Shown here: piece after piece, positions 45,170 to 55,229 of the stretch | Numbering within the stretch: position 1 is the stretch's first letter | Layout of the letters: the number at the start of each line of letters is the position of its first letter | Assembly (NCBI GenBank): GCA_002049455.2 | Contig: KV918783.1 | Coordinates: 1-64,000 of the forward strand | DNA length: 64,000 nt | From: Porphyra umbilicalis | Taxonomy: Eukaryota; Rhodophyta; Bangiophyceae; Bangiales; Bangiaceae | Direction: 5' to 3' | Notes under the pieces: generated by a model | What the model saw: the letters and a program-made list of their open reading frames with translations, nothing else | Told to the model about the DNA's origin: nothing | The model's database searches: none | Made by a program: the position numbers and the translations under genes

Positions 45170-45501
45170 ACACGATCGCCGGTCCGCCTGCGTCTTGGAT
45201 GCGGAACGCGTTTGCAACGCGCGGCGTTGCGTCGGGTGCTCCCGTAGATAGCAGGCACCGGCCGCGGTGCACATTCATTGTACACCGAGTGCGTGCACCG
45301 CCTCGATGGTGGATGGCTTGTATGCTCCCGACCAGGTCCGCCAGATTCAGTGCTCGCATATCCCGCGGTATGCCATCATGCAACAGGTGGCGGCCAGCTC
45401 GTGCCTGCCACCATGGGAAGCGCAAGGTCAACGTGCGGTGGCGTGACCGTCGTATGCAGGACTGCGCTCGAAAAAAAGAAACTCAACCAAACCGCGCGCG
45501 T
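45170..45501. repeat. Segmental duplication, copy 2
   Basis: Direct partner of 44729-45060. It overlaps the 3' end of the S1-domain gene on the minus strand, so the duplication probably copied that gene's 3' region. Confidence 0.88.
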
Positions 45502-47383
45502 GCCAACCACTCGGAGAGTGAAGTCGCGTACGCACACCTGGCCCACAACCGGCCCGTCCACCGGGCGCCCGACGCGCGCTACGAGGCGCGTCACAGCACC
45601 CCCGCGTCCTCCCCGCGCCGCGCGTCGTGGGCGGGTGGGGGCGGCCACCCCGCCGTTGCAGGCCCGCCGCCGCCCGCGAGGGGCGGCGGGGGGGGTGGCC
45701 CGGCGGGCGCCGCACCCGCCGCTGCCGTCGCCGTCGAGGCGCCCGGGTACGTGATCGGGGCAGCACCACGGGGCGGGGCACCCCCCTCCCCCCGCCCGCC
45801 CCGCCCGCACCGACGACGGGTGGCGCCGCCGCCGGCGCCGCCGTCAGCTGCGACGACAGCCACCGGTCGAGCGGCAGCCGGCCGAGCGCGGAGAGAGCGT
45901 CGGCTTGGGGTTGTGCGGGCGCCACAACGGCGGCGGGCGGCGGGGCGCCCGCCGACGGTGCCGGTTGGGCTTTCAACGCCGCGAGAAGGGCCCACAGGGT
46001 CGCGGCAGCCGCCGCCTGTTGGGGGGGCAAACCCCCCGCCGCCGGCCGCTCGCCGAGGCCGCCGCCGCTGTCGCCTCGGCCTTCCGCGGCAGCGCCGCCC
46101 CCGACGACCGCGTCGGCGCCGTCGCCCCGTGGCGCGGCCGCCATGGGCGCCTGCCACTGCTCCGTGGGCGCTCCCCAGTGCGCCATGGCCGGTTGCGCAT
46201 ACGACCCGGGGGCGGCCGCATACGGCGCCGCCGCACCGCCATACGCGTAGGGGTGTGGGGCGCTTGGCGGGGCGCCGCCGCCGCTGCCGCTGTCGGCCAC
46301 CCCCCCCGCCGCCGCACCGGCCAAGCCGCCATACGCGCCGGGCGGGGGCGCCGACGGAAAGGGCGTCGGCCGACCGCCATAGTCGCCCCGCGGACCGCCG
46401 CCGTCGGGGTACCCACAGGGGGCGCCCTGCCGCTCGGCGGGGCCTTGAAACCACGCCGACGAGGGGGTGCCACCGCCGTCGCCCCGCCCCGCCCCCGGCG
46501 CCGTCGACAGCAGCGGGGAAAAGGGCGACGGCCAGCCGCGCGGCCGCTTGGCCGGCCACCCCCCGTCGGGGGGCGGCGCGTCGGCCGCCGGCGCCGGCGC
46601 CCAGGGGTAGCCCGCGTCAGCGCGCCCGTCCCACCCCGCCCGACGGCGGTCGTCGTGGCGGTCGTCGTAGCGGCCGCCGGGCGACCGCGGCGGCGACGGG
46701 TAGCTGCGCTTGTGCGGCGGCGCGGGTGCCCACGGGTCGGATCGCCGCCCGTGCGCGTCGGCCCCGTCCCGCACGCGCCCGATCCACGACGGCTCGTCCC
46801 GTGGCGTCGTGCCCCCGCGCGTCGGCCGGCGCTCGCGGCTGCCGCCGCGCCGGTCGGCGCGCTCGCCCCGCCGCCGCCCCGCGTCATGGCGGTCCCGCCC
46901 GCGCTCGGCCGCCCGCCCGCCGTCGTAACTGTGCTCCCGCCCCCGCCGCCGCTCGTGGTCGTCGCGGCCACCGCCGGCACCCGCGACGGCAGCGTCCCAG
47001 TCGACGGCCGCGCCCGCGCGGAGCACCCCAAAGGAGAGGTACCGGTCCTTGGCGCCAATGGCGACCACTTGCACGTCGTCGCCGCGGGCATAGTGCGATG
47101 ACGGGGAAATGTAGCGGTCCAAGCCGCCGCGCATGTAGCGCACGTGGAGGAGGCCCTCGAGGGTGCTGCTCTCGCCGCCGCCGGCCGACACGCGCACGAA
47201 AACGCCATAGGGGGCCACCGACGTGACGACGCCCTTGTAGAGGGTGCCCACCCTCGAGTGGCCGTCCATCAGCGGGCGCCCGACGATCCACTCCGTCTGC
47301 GCACCGCGGCCTTCGAGCGGCAGCCGCCGGGCCCGCGACGCCGAGGGGGGGGACGCGCGCCCATCGGCCCCGTCGTCGGCCAT
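45428..47383 (-). CDS. S1-domain RNA-binding protein with Arg/Asp- and Pro/Gly-rich tail (paralogue A)
   Basis: It starts at the ATG at 47383. A short N-terminus with RARRLPLEGRGAQ leads to an S1 (OB-fold) domain at about residues 44-125, with GVVTSVAPYGVFVRV as its core. A charged Arg/Asp/Glu segment (~135-230) follows, then a long Pro/Gly/Ala-rich stretch with many Tyr-Gly motifs. Near residues 490-512 is a compact motif, DALSALGRLPLDRWLSSQL, also found in the neighbour at 52326-54884. S1 domains bind RNA; the charged tail suggests a nuclear or spliceosomal role, but the exact function is unknown. The end is uncertain: the frame runs to 45428, whereas a switch at the C runs near 45780-45800 would end it at 45591 with more natural composition. 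Confidence 0.68.
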   Translation of the reverse strand: MADDGADGRASPPSASRARRLPLEGRGAQTEWIVGRPLMDGHSRVGTLYKGVVTSVAPYGVFVRVSAGGGESSTLEGLLHVRYMRGGLDRYISPSSHYARGDDVQVVAIGAKDRYLSFGVLRAGAAVDWDAAVAGAGGGRDDHERRRGREHSYDGGRAAERGRDRHDAGRRRGERADRRGGSRERRPTRGGTTPRDEPSWIGRVRDGADAHGRRSDPWAPAPPHKRSYPSPPRSPGGRYDDRHDDRRRAGWDGRADAGYPWAPAPAADAPPPDGGWPAKRPRGWPSPFSPLLSTAPGAGRGDGGGTPSSAWFQGPAERQGAPCGYPDGGGPRGDYGGRPTPFPSAPPPGAYGGLAGAAAGGVADSGSGGGAPPSAPHPYAYGGAAAPYAAAPGSYAQPAMAHWGAPTEQWQAPMAAAPRGDGADAVVGGGAAAEGRGDSGGGLGERPAAGGLPPQQAAAAATLWALLAALKAQPAPSAGAPPPAAVVAPAQPQADALSALGRLPLDRWLSSQLTAAPAAAPPVVGAGGAGGGRGVPRPVVLPRSRTRAPRRRRQRRVRRPPGHPPRRPSRAAAGLQRRGGRPHPPTTRGAGRTRGCCDAPRSARRAPGGRAGCGPGVRTRLHSPSGWHARGLVEFLFFERSPAYDGHATAR

Positions 47384-48494
47384 GGCCCCGCCTAAACGGA
47401 TGCGCGCGCAACGTGGGGCGCGAGGAGTTGACGCCGACGTGAGCTCAGCGGGAAACGAGGGTGGGTGAAGAGGGCGCGCGTGGGTAAAGGGGGTACGAGC
47501 GAGATGCCACAGCAGCCGTTGCGACAGGGCGCGCTGTCGACCGAGGCAAGAAAGGGGGCGCACCACGGGCCCAGGCCATTGTGCTTGGCGCACGGCTCGC
47601 CACGTGGCGATACGTGATCGCTGCTTCTTCGACGACAGGCTGGATGCAGCCCGTATTGGGTCGAGGTAAAGATGGAGGTTTAAAACGAATCCCATTGGTA
47701 TCTCGACACGCTGTAAGGGACAGTTGACGTGCAAGCCCTGCCCTTCAAATTAATGCATGGCGTTGCCGAATAAAACGCCAAAGGACAGTTCGGATCAGAA
47801 CGGGCCTATACATGGGCCACTTTGACCGTCGTGTCGACGCCAATCACAAATGACATGGGCGGATGGCGCCGGCGGGCACGACCATCATGGGCGCCCATGA
47901 TGGGTGCCGACGGCCATCATGGCATTTTGATAGTGCTGGCCCGCCACGCCGGCGGGCGCTCGAGCCGGCGCGGGCGGCGGCGCGCCCCGCGGCCGACGGG
48001 CGTCCCCCCCACGCCCGCGCTGTTCGTGGCGACCGCGCCGGCAGCGGCGGGGCGCGGGGCGCCTCGCGCCACGGCCGCCGTGCGGTCGCCCCCCCGGGGA
48101 TGGGCGCCACGTCAGCGGGCGGGGGGGCATACGGCGCAGGTCGAGGGAGCCGGCGGCGCGTGCGCACGACGCGCACCGCTTTTGGCACGCGCGCCCGGCC
48201 CGCCGCGCGCCCTCCGCGGGCGCCGCCACCCCTTCCGGCCTGTGGGCACACCGTCCCCGACGCCGCCCTCGTCTGGCACCTGCCCCTGCTTTGGCACTCG
48301 GCGAGTTTGCCGCCGCTCGACGTACGCGCGAGGTTGTTAAGCGCGGCGTCGCGCGCCCCCCCCATAGTATGAAGTGTTCTAACGCTGGCGCGTCACCCCG
48401 ACGCGCCGCGACGAAATGGGGGCGTGCGGGTCCACGTGTTCCCTAACCCCCCCCCCTACTCCCCCCCTCCCCCACCCCCCCCCCCCCCCACCCC
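47384..48494. other. Intergenic region, S1-A upstream and AdoMetDC-ODC downstream
   Basis: About 1.1 kb. It holds a perfect 20-bp palindrome at 47883-47902 (CATCATGGGCGCCCATGATG) and a related CCATCATGGCA nearby. Open plus-strand frames at 47822-48372 lack recognisable domains. Confidence 0.4.
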
Positions 48495-51233
48495 TCACGT
48501 GCGCGACGTGACGTAGCGGGTGCGGAAGTGGCGGCCAAAGCCGTTGAAGGAGCTCGCCGCCGACACTGCGTAGGCGCCCATGGCGCGAAAGACGAGCACG
48601 TCGCCGACGTTGAGCAGCGGCAGGCACCCCCCCACACCCGGTCGAGGCTGTCGCACGTCGGCCCAAAGAGCACCGACGGGAAGCGGCCGCGGCCCGGCGG
48701 CCCCGCGCCGAGCGGCGACGCGGCGGCGCCGCCGAGGAGCACCCGGTTAAACGCGCCATACACCCCATCGTTGAGGTAGTAGAGGACCGACGACAGGTCG
48801 GCGGCGGCGGCGGCGCCGGCCGGGCTAACCACGCCGTCGTCGGCGCCGCCGCCGCCGCCGTCGCCGCCGCCGCCGCCGTCGCCGCCGTCGCACCCGTCGC
48901 CGCCCTCGTCGCTGCTGCCGGCGCCGCTGCCGCCGCTGCCGCTGCCGCTGTCGCCCCCGTCGGACGACGCCGCCGCCCCCGCCGCCGTCAGCCGCCGCGC
49001 AATGACCGTGACGGCGAGGGTGACGGCTTCGCCAATGACAAAGGGCGACGCGCCCGCCGACACGTCGCCAAGCACGTCGACGGCGAGGCTCAGCGACGCG
49101 AGCAGCGCCACCGACTGCTCGGCGAGGAAGCCGCCCGCGAGGTGCACGCGCAGGGGTGGGGCGGCCGTCCCGCCGGCGGCCCCACCCCCCCCCCCCCCCG
49201 CCCCACGCACGACCGCGGCGACCGTCGCCACACACGCCGCCGCGCGGGTGAGCGACGCCGCGTCCGCCACCGCCGGCGCCTCGACGCGCACGGCGACGAC
49301 GGTCAGGCCCGCGGCGACGGCCGCGACGGCCGTGGCGACCGACGCGGCGAGCGCCGACGGCACCGCCTCCACCTCCACGTCGCCCGCGGGGAGGTGCGCG
49401 GCGAGCCGCTCGACGGCCGCCCGCCCCGCGCCCGCCGGCAAGACGACCGTCCCCGCGAGGCGGCCCGCCGACACGCGGCCGAGGAGCTTGCGCGGGAGCC
49501 CCACCGACGCGAGCGTCACGCGGGCGGGGGCGACGCCGAGGCGGGCGAGGTGCTCGAGCTCCGCCCCGCCGGCAGCCTCAAAGTCGGCGCCGAGGCGCGC
49601 GAGGAGCGCCACAACCGCCGCGTCGGCGTTGCAGCGGAGGGCGTAGCGGAGGCGCCCGCCCGTGGCCGCCACCGCCACGGCGCGGTCGGCAACGGTGGTG
49701 AGGCTAACCGCAAACGTCGGCTCGTCAAGCACCGCCGCCGTCGAGCGCGCGACGGCGGCGCCGCCGTCGGTCGAGACGGGGACGGCGCCGTAGCGGGCGG
49801 CAACGGCCGCCACGGCCGCGTCGAGGGCGAATTTGGAGACGGGCGCGCCGCCGGGGCCGCCGCCGCCACCGCCGCCGAGGATGCCGCCCTTGTCGGTTGG
49901 GGACTTTGCCCAGAGGCCCCCAGGGGACGGCGGCGACGCCCGCACCAGCGCCGCGACCGGCCCGCCCGTCGCCGCGGCCACGGCGCGGCGGTCCGCGCGC
50001 GGCACCGGCAGCGGCGCCGACACGCGGGGGCCCGTGTGCACGGCGCGTGGGCGGTCGCCCCCCCCCCCCCCCCCCCCCGCCGGGACACGCGCGTAGGAGC
50101 TGACCGACGCGAGGTGCACCCCCCCCCCACCGTCGCCATCCGCCGCGCGACGACGGCGCCCGTGGAGGTGTAGCCCGCCGCCGCGGGCGCGTCCCAGTCG
50201 AGGGGCGTTGCGCGCGTGGCCCCCCCCCCCCCCCCGCCCGTCGGCGAGCACCGACACGGTCAGCCGCCCCGGCCGAAAGACGGCGAGCACCGCCCGCAGG
50301 AGTGGTGTTAAGTCCGCATCGTCAACGTTGCACTCAAACGACACGTAGCTGCAGTGCGACTCGGGGGTGATGTGGACGGTGTAGTAGGTGCCGCCGGCGA
50401 GGCCGTTCATGCTGTAGCCGCACGGCTCAAAGTTCCACGCGTCCGCCGTCGCGCCGGGGCGGAGGAGCGTGTCGAGGCGGGAGGTGGCCGTCGTTGTGGC
50501 CGCGGGACAATCGGGGGGGCGCGTGCCGACGGGCACGCCGCCGCCGCCGCCGCCGCCGCCGTCGCCGCCGCCGTTGGTGGCAGCCGCCGCCGCCAGTGCC
50601 GTCGTGGCCGTGAGCGCCGCCCCCCTGTCGTCGACGGGGGCGGTGATAAAGTGCGCCATGACCGCCGGGTCGAGGTCAAACATAAACACCTCGAGGGTTT
50701 GGGCGGCGCCCGCCTTGGGCGGCGCCCCCACCCCCCTCTCCCCCCCCCCCCCCCCCCCACCTCGGCCGGCGGGGAGCCCGCCACGTACAGGTGCCACGCG
50801 GCGACGCCATCCGGCGTGCCGAGCACCGCCGCGCGGCCGTGAAAAAAGCGGTCCAAAAACGCCACCTCGGCCGCCCACGAGGTGTGCGGAAACAGCTGCT
50901 GGTCTGGGTACGTAAAGGCCGTCCGCGAGTAGGCCACCCCCGCCACGTCGAGGCGCCGCCGCGCGGCGAGGCGCAAGAGGCGCGGGATGGCGCGGAGGAG
51001 CGTCGTCGTCCCACACGTCTTGATCAGCACCCGCCGCGCAAAGACAAAGAGGGACGACTCGGAGAGGAGGTACGCGTCACACGCCGCCCCGCGCGTCACC
51101 GACAGCACCGTGCAGCGGGCGTCGGTGAGGACCGCGTCCCACTCGTCGCGGCCGGCGCCGCGGAGGTCGTACGCACCCCCGCCGCCGCCGTTGCCGCCGC
51201 CGTCGCGGTCGCCGCCGCCACCGCCGCCGTCGA

Positions 51234-51270
<37 letters not shown>

Positions 51271-51507
51271 CCGCCGGTGGGGGGCCGCCGCCCGCCCGCC
51301 GCGGCGCGGCGCCGGCGCCGGCGCAAACGAGAGGACGAGCTTCTTTTCGGGCCCCTCAAACGCGTCCTCCGCGGCCAGCGGCGGGGGTGGTGGTGGTGGT
51401 GGTGAGGGTACCGCCGCCGCCGCCGCGGCCGCCGCGTCGCGCTCCGCCTCGCCGGGCGCAGTGGGGGGGCGCGCCCGCCCGGGGGCGGCGCCCTCGGCGG
51501 CGGGCAT
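48495..51507 (-). CDS. AdoMetDC-ODC-like fusion; ODC half probably inactive
   Basis: It starts at the ATG at 51507; about 1000 codons. The N-terminal half is S-adenosylmethionine decarboxylase: FEGPEKK (~46; processing Glu residues), the self-cleavage/pyruvoyl site LSESS (~147), KTCGTTTLL with the catalytic Cys (~162), and FEPCGYSMNG with the Ser and VHITPE with the His that drive processing (~360-380). A Gly/Pro-rich linker leads to an ornithine decarboxylase domain (~575-1003). It keeps YYLNDGVYGAFN, FGPTCDSLDRV and the end NVGDVLVFRAMGAYAVSAAS...FNGFG. In it the PLP-lysine motif AVKCN reads ALRCN, and the His, glycine-rich and EPGR positions are also replaced. Frame changes coincide with C/G homopolymers at ~50737-50757, ~50220, ~50125 and ~48625. 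Role: polyamine synthesis, with a regulatory ODC-like partner domain inferred. Confidence 0.85.
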
Positions 51508-52325: not shown

Positions 52326-54884
52326 TCACGGGGGCGGCCAAACCGCCGGCAGTCCCCCGCCGCGCTCCCCCCCCCTCACCCCGTCACGGCCACCCCGCCG
52401 GTCGCCCACCGCCGCCCCGCCCTTGACTGCCGCCGGCGGCATCACGCCCCCCCCCCCCCCCAGCCACGCCTCCAGCGCGACGCGGCCGAGCACCGCCAGG
52501 GGGTTCACCACCGCCGCCGCGGGCGCCCCACCGGCGGCGCCGCCGGCACCGCCGCCGCCGCCGCCGCCGACGCGCGCGCCCACCGCCGCCGGGCTGAGGG
52601 AGGTCAGCGCCGAGACGAGGAGGCCGAGCGCCTGCTGCGACGCGTCGGGCGGGACCGCCACCGCGGGCGGTGGCGCCGCCCCCGCCGACGGCGGGGGTGC
52701 GTGCCGCGCGGGCGGCGGGCGCGCCCGCAGCGGCAGCGGTGGGGGCGGCGCGCCCGCGTTCCCGCCGCCGGCGCCCGTCGTCGGGGGGTTCCAACCCCCC
52801 GCCCTGCCAGCCGCCGGCGGTCGGGTCTCCAACGGCGGGTCGCGCCAGCGGAGCGGACCCGGAAAGGGTGGCAGCGCCTGCCACGGTGGCGGCGGCGGCG
52901 GGGCCCCGCCCCCCGAACTCGCCACCGTTACGGGCGACGCGTCGGCGCCGCGCGACTGCGGCGGCGGCGGCGGCGGCGGCGACAGCGACGACGACGCGCG
53001 GTGGGGGGGGCCCACCGCCGCCGAGACGTCGACGGCCGTCGGTGGCGGCGGCGGTCGGGGCGGCTGCTGCACGCCGCGTGGCGGCGGCGGAAAGAGGCCG
53101 CGCCCGCCGTCGCCGCCACCGGCCGCCGCCGCCGTTGCCGCCACCGCGGCTGTCGGATACCCGCCCGGCGCTGCGGCACGCGGCGCGCACGGGCGCTTGG
53201 CGGGTGGCCCCTCGGCGGCCCAGTCGGGCGCCCCGTGGGCGGCGGGCGGCCGCTCCCAGGCCCGCCCGTCGAGGCAGCCGGCGGCGCCCGCCCCCCGCTC
53301 GGGCGCCCACGCGGGGTGCACGCGCGGCGGCGCCGCGTCGGCACCCACCCACCCCCCGACGGGCGCGGGCGCGGGCGCGGGCCACGGCCCGCGTGCCCGC
53401 GGCGGGGGCCCGTCGACCCGGTCGCCGGCGGCCGACCGCGCCCAGCCGGCGCGCTCCGGCGCCGTGTGCCCGGGCCACCCGTCGCCACAGCGCGTGGGGG
53501 GTCCGCCGGGGGTGGGCGGCCACGCCAGCTCGCGGCGCGCGGCGTGGCCGACCCTGTGGGCAGCGGCGGCGGCCGCGCCCACAGCCGGCAACGGCGGCGA
53601 CGCGTCCCGCGCCCGCTTGCGCGATGATCGAACTCTATCGCCCCAGACACGGTCACGGTCGCGGTCGTGGTCACGCGCCGATTCCGGGTGACGGGGGCGG
53701 TCATGGTCGCGACCCCGGTCACGGTCCCGTTCGCGTTCGCGGTCGTGGCGTCGGTCGCGTTCCCAGTCACGCTCCCGGTCGCGGTCGCGGTCGTCCCGGC
53801 GCTCCCGCTCCCGCCCGCCGTCACGCTCCTGCACGCGCTCATGGTGGGACGACCGGTCCCGCCGCTCGCACCGGCGACCGCCGTATGCGTCCACGTCGTG
53901 CCGGCTGACGTGGCGCAACCGCTCTAGCTCCTCCCGCTCTCGGCTCGACCGGTGCTCCCGTTCCCGACTTGACAGCTTGTGCTCGCACTCCCGGGCGCGC
54001 CACTTTTCCCGGTCCCGGTCCCGGTCCAAGTCCCGGTCGCGCTCGCGCTCGTGCTCGCGCTCGCGCTCGAGCTCGCGCTCCCGCTCCCGCACGCCAATAT
54101 GGGGCGCCCGCTCCCGACTACCGCCTCGCCGCCACTCGCGGTCGCGGTCACGCTCCCGCTCCCGCTCCCACTCCGCCTCACGGTATGGCACCGGCACGAC
54201 GCCCCGCCCAGGCGACTGGAGCGCGTCGCCGCCCCCGCCGCCCCAGTCGCCGCCCCCCCACCCACCCGCCCCCCCCGGCGCGCATCCCCCCCCCCCGCGC
54301 CCCCCCAACCCGGCTCTTGCTGCGCACCGACCCCCTCCCGCGCCCGCCCCCCCCCCCCCCAACCCCCCCCCCCCCCCCGGGCGCCACGCCCGGCGGCCAC
54401 CACGCGACGCCCTCCCCCCCCGGGCCATCCCCAACTCCAACCGCCCGTCCCGCTCGCCCAGCGCCACCGCCACAAGCGACGTGCCGCGCGTCACAAACGG
54501 GGGCAACCCCGCCCCCTGCCCGTCCGCGTCCCCCCCCGGCATGTTGCGCACGTGGAGGAAGGCTGGGAGGTCGTCGGCCGCGCCGGCGCCCCCCCCCCCC
54601 GCGGGCGCGAGGCGCACAAACGCGCCGTACGGGCGGAGGGCGGTGACCGTCGCGGCGGGGTAGGTGGCGCCGACGGACGAGCGGCCGGCGAGGAGGGGGA
54701 AGCCGACCGCCACGGCGGTGCACGCGCCGCGGCCTTCCAGGGGGAGCCGCCTCAGCCGCGCACACGGCAACGACGCGCTGCGGCTGCGGCTGCGGCTGTG
54801 GCTGCGGCCGAGGCCGCGGCCGCGGTGGGCATGGAAGAGGGGGGGCGGGGAAGCGCGCCGGGGGGGGGGCGGCGCGGTGCCCAT
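52326..54884 (-). CDS. S1-domain protein with Arg/Glu-Arg/Asp repeats (paralogue B)
   Basis: It starts at the ATG at 54884; 852 residues. An RS-rich N-terminus (SHSRSRSRSAS) leads to LRRLPLEGRGA and an S1 domain at about residues 72-150 (core ALRPYGAFVRL, then FLHVRNMPGG). Residues ~225-450 are dense in RE, RD and HD dipeptides, typical of splicing factors. A Pro/Gly-rich region follows, and near 760-806 the segments LGLLVSALTSL and NPLAVLGRVALEAWL. Overall order and both conserved motifs match the gene at 45428-47383, so the two are paralogues. RE/RD-rich S1 proteins occur in the spliceosome (for example DHX8-type helicases have S1 plus RS), but no helicase is present. Function is inferred as nuclear RNA binding. 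Confidence 0.72.
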   Translation of the reverse strand: MGTAPPPPRRASPPPLFHAHRGRGLGRSHSRSRSRSASLPCARLRRLPLEGRGACTAVAVGFPLLAGRSSVGATYPAATVTALRPYGAFVRLAPAGGGGAGAADDLPAFLHVRNMPGGDADGQGAGLPPFVTRGTSLVAVALGERDGRLELGMARGGRASRGGRRAWRPGGGGGLGGGGAGAGGGRCAARAGLGGRGGGGCAPGGAGGWGGGDWGGGGGDALQSPGRGVVPVPYREAEWERERERDRDREWRRGGSRERAPHIGVRERERELEREREHERERDRDLDRDRDREKWRARECEHKLSSREREHRSSREREELERLRHVSRHDVDAYGGRRCERRDRSSHHERVQERDGGRERERRDDRDRDRERDWERDRRHDRERERDRDRGRDHDRPRHPESARDHDRDRDRVWGDRVRSSRKRARDASPPLPAVGAAAAAAHRVGHAARRELAWPPTPGGPPTRCGDGWPGHTAPERAGWARSAAGDRVDGPPPRARGPWPAPAPAPVGGWVGADAAPPRVHPAWAPERGAGAAGCLDGRAWERPPAAHGAPDWAAEGPPAKRPCAPRAAAPGGYPTAAVAATAAAAGGGDGGRGLFPPPPRGVQQPPRPPPPPTAVDVSAAVGPPHRASSSLSPPPPPPPQSRGADASPVTVASSGGGAPPPPPPWQALPPFPGPLRWRDPPLETRPPAAGRAGGWNPPTTGAGGGNAGAPPPPLPLRARPPPARHAPPPSAGAAPPPAVAVPPDASQQALGLLVSALTSLSPAAVGARVGGGGGGGAGGAAGGAPAAAVVNPLAVLGRVALEAWLGGGGGVMPPAAVKGGAAVGDRRGGRDGVRGGERGGGLPAVWPPP

Positions 54885-55229
54885 CCCGCGGCGGCGTGGG
54901 AGCAAACCGGCCGACGCAGAGGGGCGGCCGCCGCGGTGCGCCCGGGCGACGCCGGCTGGCGGTGGGCGGTACGAGACCACGAGGGGAGCGGCAGAGTCAG
55001 CAGGGGAGGCGGACAGGATGGTAAAGGGCAGACAGGCCGCCAGAGAGCACGGCGGGCGCGGGGGAAGAGCGACAGGCGGGGTGGTGAGTAGGTGCCGTGG
55101 TCAAGGCGGCAGGCAGCTGGCGGGTCGACCGACCCGCCGCGACCCGGAAGGGCCACGGATCCTCGCCCGAGATGACCGGGCCAGCGTGCACCACGTCTGC
55201 GGGGCTCCTGGCGCATCCGCCGAGACAGT
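54885..55229. other. Upstream region of S1 paralogue B
   Basis: 345 bp of promoter/leader candidate sequence between the S1-B start and the first small MITE. No gene seen. Confidence 0.35.

Follow-up and report, generated by a model that had tools for sequence, protein, structure and literature searches.

A gene for AdoMetDC joined to an ODC-like domain

We analyzed 64,000 nucleotides of the red alga Porphyra umbilicalis (contig KV918783.1 of assembly GCA_002049455.2, positions 1 to 64,000 of the forward strand; hereafter, the window) and focused on a minus-strand gene at 48495–51507 that encodes S-adenosylmethionine decarboxylase (AdoMetDC) followed by a domain related to ornithine decarboxylase (ODC). 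The gene starts with an ATG at 51507 and ends with a TGA whose last base is at 48495, exactly the limits proposed in a first-pass annotation of this DNA. Read across four frame changes located in poly-G runs, it encodes a protein of 996 amino acids with Gly-rich insertions. This protein matched the Pfam families SAM_decarbox (PF01536, the eukaryotic AdoMetDC family; 273.5 bits over profile positions 27–299 of 343), Orn_Arg_deC_N (31.5 bits) and Orn_DAP_Arg_deC (39.1 bits).

The AdoMetDC part aligns with human AdoMetDC over both chains. Its first segment (50759–51507, minus strand) comprises a Gly/Ala-rich extension, the beta chain and the start of the alpha chain, and is supported by an alignment with AdoMetDC from the PDB and by PF01536 (151.6 bits at 50776–51168). 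The second segment (50236–50739, minus strand) carries AQTLEVFM, NFEPCGYSMNG and HITPE and matched PF01536 with 109.4 bits at 50237–50707. A short first-frame segment (ATPLDWDAPAAAGYTSTGAVVARRMATV; 50129–50211, minus strand) probably forms the AdoMetDC C-terminus, given its position and a weak resemblance. All the processing and catalytic motifs claimed for this part are present and align with the human enzyme. We found FEGPEK, LSESS (51052–51066, minus strand), KTCGTT, CGYSMNG and HITPE, and we take the last four to be the processing site and the motifs of the catalytic Cys, Ser and His. The first serine after the Glu of LSESS is presumably the source of the pyruvoyl group. By its sequence, then, the AdoMetDC part is of the eukaryotic type, with its processing and catalytic motifs intact. 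Counting along the alignment, an Ala (50704–50702, minus strand) stands at human D174, and E178 is conserved. Given this Ala at D174, which we assume to be a residue of putrescine activation, such activation of the algal AdoMetDC may differ from the human type.

No one frame spans the whole gene. Homology switches frame four times, always within a run of G on the minus strand (19 bases at 50740–50758, 16 at 50220–50235, 10 at 50119–50128 and 7 at 48627–48633). Two more runs, of 21 and 15 bases, are not associated with a frame change, and all six runs of at least 7 G together make up 2.9% of the gene. We searched the whole genome (83.8 Mb in 665 contigs of an assembly that may be incomplete) in six frames, a procedure that is blind to introns, and scored the best candidates. 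The PF01536 profile found only one AdoMetDC, the one in the window. Because this single copy has intact motifs, the simplest reading of the frame changes, and the one the data suggest, is that they are errors in homopolymer length.

The two parts of the protein are joined by a linker (49859–50118, minus strand) that is an open frame without an in-frame ATG. Between 50119 and 48634 no stop codon interrupts the frame used, while the other two have 4 and 5, and GC content at the three codon positions is 0.83, 0.65 and 0.94. At such a GC content an open frame is by itself weak evidence, because 7% of 5000 first-order Markov sequences were open over a stretch of about the same length (taken from a start one base out of frame). 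A separately translated ODC is nevertheless unlikely, given the combination of an open frame without ATG, a third-position GC of 0.94 and the stops in the other frames. We rejected a separate ODC gene within the window since no in-frame ATG occurs from 50119 to 48634. The proposed fusion is thus upheld, with its junction inside the open frame. The accompanying statement that no in-frame stop intervenes holds for 50119–48634, the junction included, but not for the gene as a whole with its four frame changes. On the best explanation, the whole gene encodes a single polypeptide in which AdoMetDC is followed by a pseudo-ODC tail.

The tail has lost the PLP site and kept the C-terminal domain

The pseudo-ODC consists of an alpha/beta barrel (49049–49858) and a C-terminal domain (48495–49048), both on the minus strand. 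Over the barrel, identity to human ODC is 18% (214 aligned positions), and in human numbering it shows K69R, D88E and R154E, lacks the K169–G171 loop and has lost H197, E274, G276 and R277. The Arg reported at the position of the lysine that binds pyridoxal 5'-phosphate (PLP) is encoded by CGC at 49634–49636 (minus strand), and a single-base error cannot explain this codon. The alignment likewise bears out the loss of E274 and R277, and that of H197, although the strong divergence of the barrel leaves the alignment around H197 uncertain. The reported loss of the glycines at 235–237 is correct for G235 only, which is Ala; G236 and G237 are kept. R154 and the loop K169-F170-G171 are losses that the first-pass annotation had not listed.

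The C-terminal domain is well conserved: of 114 positions aligned with human ODC, 45% are identical, and query residues 264–393 score 86.2 bits against the human protein. It carries NDGVYGAFN, the GPTCDSLDRV noted previously and MGAYAVSAASSFNGF, and it crosses the frame change at 48633–48627. The Cys equivalent to human C360 is encoded by TGC at 48653–48655 (minus strand). Both families of the fold-III ODC fold, the barrel (PF02784) and the C-terminal beta domain (PF00278), scored above the cut-off, and a low-confidence structure model matched the ODC fold in Foldseek and VIA. With Arg in place of K69, and without the PLP-site residues E274, G276, R277 and R154, this is not a catalytically competent fold-III ODC. 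These features are best explained by a tail that has retained the fold of ODC and lost the ability to bind PLP.

A separate ODC-like gene lacks Cys360

The first-pass annotation had proposed looking for a separate active ODC in the genome. PLP-barrel family matches occurred in four places, the window and contigs C186, C562 and C132, and one of them (C132) is an ODC-like gene with an intact PLP side. The match on C186 was rejected as a further ODC because it is a diaminopimelate decarboxylase (lysA, 382.3 bits against a cut-off of 297.9). The match on C562 (L003) was rejected as lysA-like, at 213.2 bits, under the same cut-off. These six-frame searches, with the best candidates scored, found no second AdoMetDC and no further fold-III ODC.

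The C132 protein lies in an unbroken 718-aa frame, and its closest solved relatives by sequence are ODCs. Its model has a mean predicted local distance difference test score (pLDDT) of 84.2 and matched human ODC in Foldseek with an E value of 4.6e-44. The barrel is 48% identical to that of human ODC and has a GC content of 0.73, 0.48 and 0.91 by codon position, the same kind of coding signature as that of 50119–48634. It carries PYFAVKCN, FDCASK, HVGSGC, DIGGGFPG and EPGRY; as judged from these motifs, its PLP side is intact. In the C-terminal domain, CGPTNDALD and CTGFDDTEK stand where human ODC has WGPTCDGLD and STFNGFQR. C360 is thus replaced by Asn and N398 by Asp, and a HMMER alignment pairs these residues identically, without a gap. 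The pseudo-ODC of the fusion keeps both residues that are changed in C132.

One may ask whether these observations are artefacts, with a misassembly behind the frame changes or the junction and a true genome that holds separate genes or an intact ODC. The four frame changes, all within poly-G runs, speak for this. However, they are at a distance from the junction, from K69R and from the changes at E274 and R277, the Arg is coded CGC, a separate ODC would have no in-frame ATG to start from, and the Asn360 of C132 sits in its unbroken frame. We consider an artefact very improbable.

Losses at near-invariant positions do not overlap

To place these substitutions we used a baseline of 110 related decarboxylases, encoded by bacteria or by IMG/VR viral contigs; it includes diaminopimelate-type rows and has human ODC as its only eukaryote. 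It was drawn from matches to alignments holding C132 and human ODC, or those two and the window protein. Sixty extra loci were hand-picked from the listed rows and are not a random sample; 121 open reading frame hits were reduced to 110 by dropping contained sequences. C360 is Cys in 110 out of 110 rows, and N398 and K69 are each conserved in 109, with one gap.

We defined 23 near-invariant positions as those conserved in at least 97% of the rows with the same residue in human ODC. C132 departs at two of these (C360 and N398) and the window protein at 12, all of them in the barrel; none is lost in both. The pseudo-ODC keeps all seven near-invariant positions of the C-terminal domain, C360 and N398 included. 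Fisher's exact test of protein against domain of the losses gave p = 0.011, a thin result because C132 supplies just two losses. At the 90% level (48 rows, without the distant L017, L018 and L065), C132 keeps 23/25 barrel and 8/11 C-terminal positions, and the window protein 11/25 and 11/11. At position 39, one of the three C-terminal differences of C132 at this level, the residue of C132 is the human one.

D364 and G387 of ODC are dimer contacts, and K169 is the partner of D364. Both proteins keep D364 and G387. K169 is kept in C132 alone, which fits a dimer with one working side. Separately, we note that four IMG/VR viral contigs (L019–L022) encode fold-III ODC-like decarboxylases, and that all four have the C360 equivalent.

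We also built separate trees for the barrel and the C-terminal domain (without rows L013, L017, L018 and L065). The end branches of the window protein measure 9.48 for the barrel and 1.12 for the C-terminal domain, those of C132 0.53 and 1.08, and those of human ODC 0.65 and 0.27. C132 therefore has its longer branch in the C-terminal domain, the opposite of human ODC and the window protein. The C-terminal domain of the window protein clusters with human and Chlamydiota sequences (support 97/92), and the barrel of C132 clusters with the same set (96/76). C132 and the pseudo-ODC are not sisters in either tree, a placement made unsure by the long branches.

The very long barrel branch, which carries a composition flag, is what would be expected if the pseudo-ODC were the decaying relic of a once bifunctional AdoMetDC-ODC whose C-terminal domain outlasts the barrel because the fused protein needs it for folding. 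The Gly-rich insertions point the same way. Decay is harder to reconcile with the coding state of the domain (an open frame, the high third-position GC, stops in both other frames) and with the retention of every near-invariant C-terminal position, and it does not predict the matching loss in C132. We regard a relic as improbable.

A proposed active site split between two proteins

Two active sites lie at the interface of the ODC dimer. To each site one subunit contributes K69 and the PLP pocket, and its partner C360 and D361, as is known from the mouse and trypanosome enzymes; there, K69A and C360A mutants reportedly complement one another upon mixing. The two algal proteins resemble this pair of mutants. 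The pseudo-ODC would pair with the C132 protein, whose barrel can hold PLP and whose C-terminal domain is without Cys360. In the mixed dimer one site would be complete. The C132 barrel would contribute K69, D88, R154, H197, G235–237, E274 and R277, and the pseudo-ODC would contribute C360 and D361 across the interface, probably together with F397 and N398; that N398 acts across the interface is suggested by its place beside F397. The second site, formed by the dead barrel and the Asn360 domain, would be silent. Of the possible dimers, C132 with itself would carry Asn in place of C360 in both sites and the fusion with itself would be without a PLP site; only the mixed dimer would hold the full set. 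The outcome would be a two-protein AdoMetDC/ODC complex, presumably acting on ornithine, in which ODC activity would depend on the AdoMetDC polypeptide.

Our best explanation is that the pseudo-ODC, by pairing with C132, completes one ODC site with the half that C132 lacks, tying ODC to AdoMetDC; we hold this to be a real possibility, if short of a probability. More tentatively, the fusion and the Cys360-less ODC could form an obligate heterodimer with a naturally split ODC site, only one of whose two sites works.

The first-pass annotation had offered three roles for the tail: built-in regulator, dimerization partner or antizyme target. Among these we favor the dimerization partner. A search of the genome gave no match to the antizyme family, but it had no working positive control and shows little, and the role of antizyme target is without support. 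A purely regulatory or scaffolding tail, like the trypanosomatid prozyme or the antizyme inhibitor, would stabilize AdoMetDC or bind ODC allosterically and leave C132 to work alone with Asn360. Such a simple regulator is insufficient, because it leaves unexplained why the tail keeps 7/7 C-terminal positions, C360 and N398 among them, while C132 has lost these two; the failure to match an antizyme, with the limit just given, also speaks against it. We judge it unlikely, if well worth keeping in mind.

Several points weigh against a split site. A single genome and a pair of C132 substitutions underlie the proposal. By chance, both C132 losses would fall among the 11 positions retained by the pseudo-ODC with probability 0.22, and within the C-terminal domain with probability 0.083. 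The model of the pseudo-ODC has a mean pLDDT of 63.4, with 133 of 408 residues below 50 and Foldseek TM-scores of about 0.5; the alignment behind it consists of ODC-like rows, which biases the model towards that fold. Dimerization is not assured with a barrel so degenerate. A Cys at position 356 of C132, four residues from 360, might compensate for the missing one. ODC need not be essential either, because the genome holds a match to the agmatine deiminase family and, on C427, a protein of the fold-I Orn/Lys/Arg decarboxylase family (L011; no NCBIfam model above cut-off); putrescine may come from agmatine as a second source. Finally, neither protein has human D332, a substrate contact of ODC (Gly replaces it in the pseudo-ODC, Leu in C132), which makes ornithine binding uncertain.

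This last difference, together with the altered segment that precedes it in C132 (GSFKDAVILG), could mean that C132, though of the same family, is not an ODC and differs in its chemistry or substrate, its Asn360 being adaptive and unrelated to the pseudo-ODC. The close similarity of its barrel to human ODC and its grouping with human and Chlamydiota ODC-like proteins argue otherwise. The pseudo-ODC likewise has no acid at 332, and both proteins may share a changed pocket. We give this explanation very little weight.

Genomic and pathway setting

The genome also holds a member of the spermidine synthase family. Two long minus-strand frames flank the gene (45428–47734 and 52326–54980). Both contain the motif RLPLEGRGA and, after it, S1-like stretches that are similar in the two (VTSVAPYGVFVR and VTALRPYGAFVR), which suggests that they are paralogues; neither matched a Pfam family. 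Phycobilisome linker matches number 12 in the genome. Four lie on C665, where a single long frame contains three of them, and the remaining eight are on contigs other than C665; C665 would fit plastid DNA of a red alga.

Comparison with known systems

Precedents exist for fusions of AdoMetDC with ODC, for catalytically dead homologues of ODC, and for dead paralogues by which enzymes of polyamine synthesis are activated. The comparison with apicomplexan fusions and the trypanosome prozyme, drawn in the first-pass annotation, is a reasonable one. To our knowledge, a dead ODC fused to AdoMetDC has not been described together with a separate ODC that lacks the complementary residue. The bifunctional AdoMetDC/ODC of Plasmodium resembles the fusion in having AdoMetDC and then ODC in one chain. 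Its ODC domain is active, whereas the algal fusion has lost the PLP lysine along with further residues of the PLP site, and the intact barrel is on a second protein; the gene does not encode an apicomplexan-type enzyme with two active domains. Since the plastids of apicomplexans descend from a red alga, the shared order of domains raises the question of a red-algal source for the apicomplexan fusion.

Trypanosomatid AdoMetDC requires a dead paralogue, the prozyme, for its activation, and an enzyme of polyamine synthesis would likewise depend on a dead paralogue here. The prozyme is a dead AdoMetDC that acts allosterically, whereas the dead partner in the window is a homologue of the C132 ODC, not of the AdoMetDC to which it is fused, and it would donate catalytic residues. 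The antizyme inhibitor (solved as 3btn and 4zgz) differs in being unfused to AdoMetDC and in acting by binding antizyme. A further functional likeness would be to hybrid dimers of K69A and C360A ODC, in which Tobias and Kahana in 1993 and Osterman and others in 1994 reportedly restored one site from two inactive mutants. There too an active site is shared across the dimer and mixing restores one site; those hybrids were engineered, whereas here the division would be natural, and one of the partners carries an AdoMetDC.

Polyamine synthesis is classically controlled at two enzymes, ODC and AdoMetDC. If the proposal is true, these two controlled steps would be locked in one assembly by an active site split between two genes, a natural counterpart of a mixing experiment known to us only with engineered ODC mutants. 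It would be a third way of coupling or controlling the pathway, beside the apicomplexan fusion and the trypanosome prozyme.
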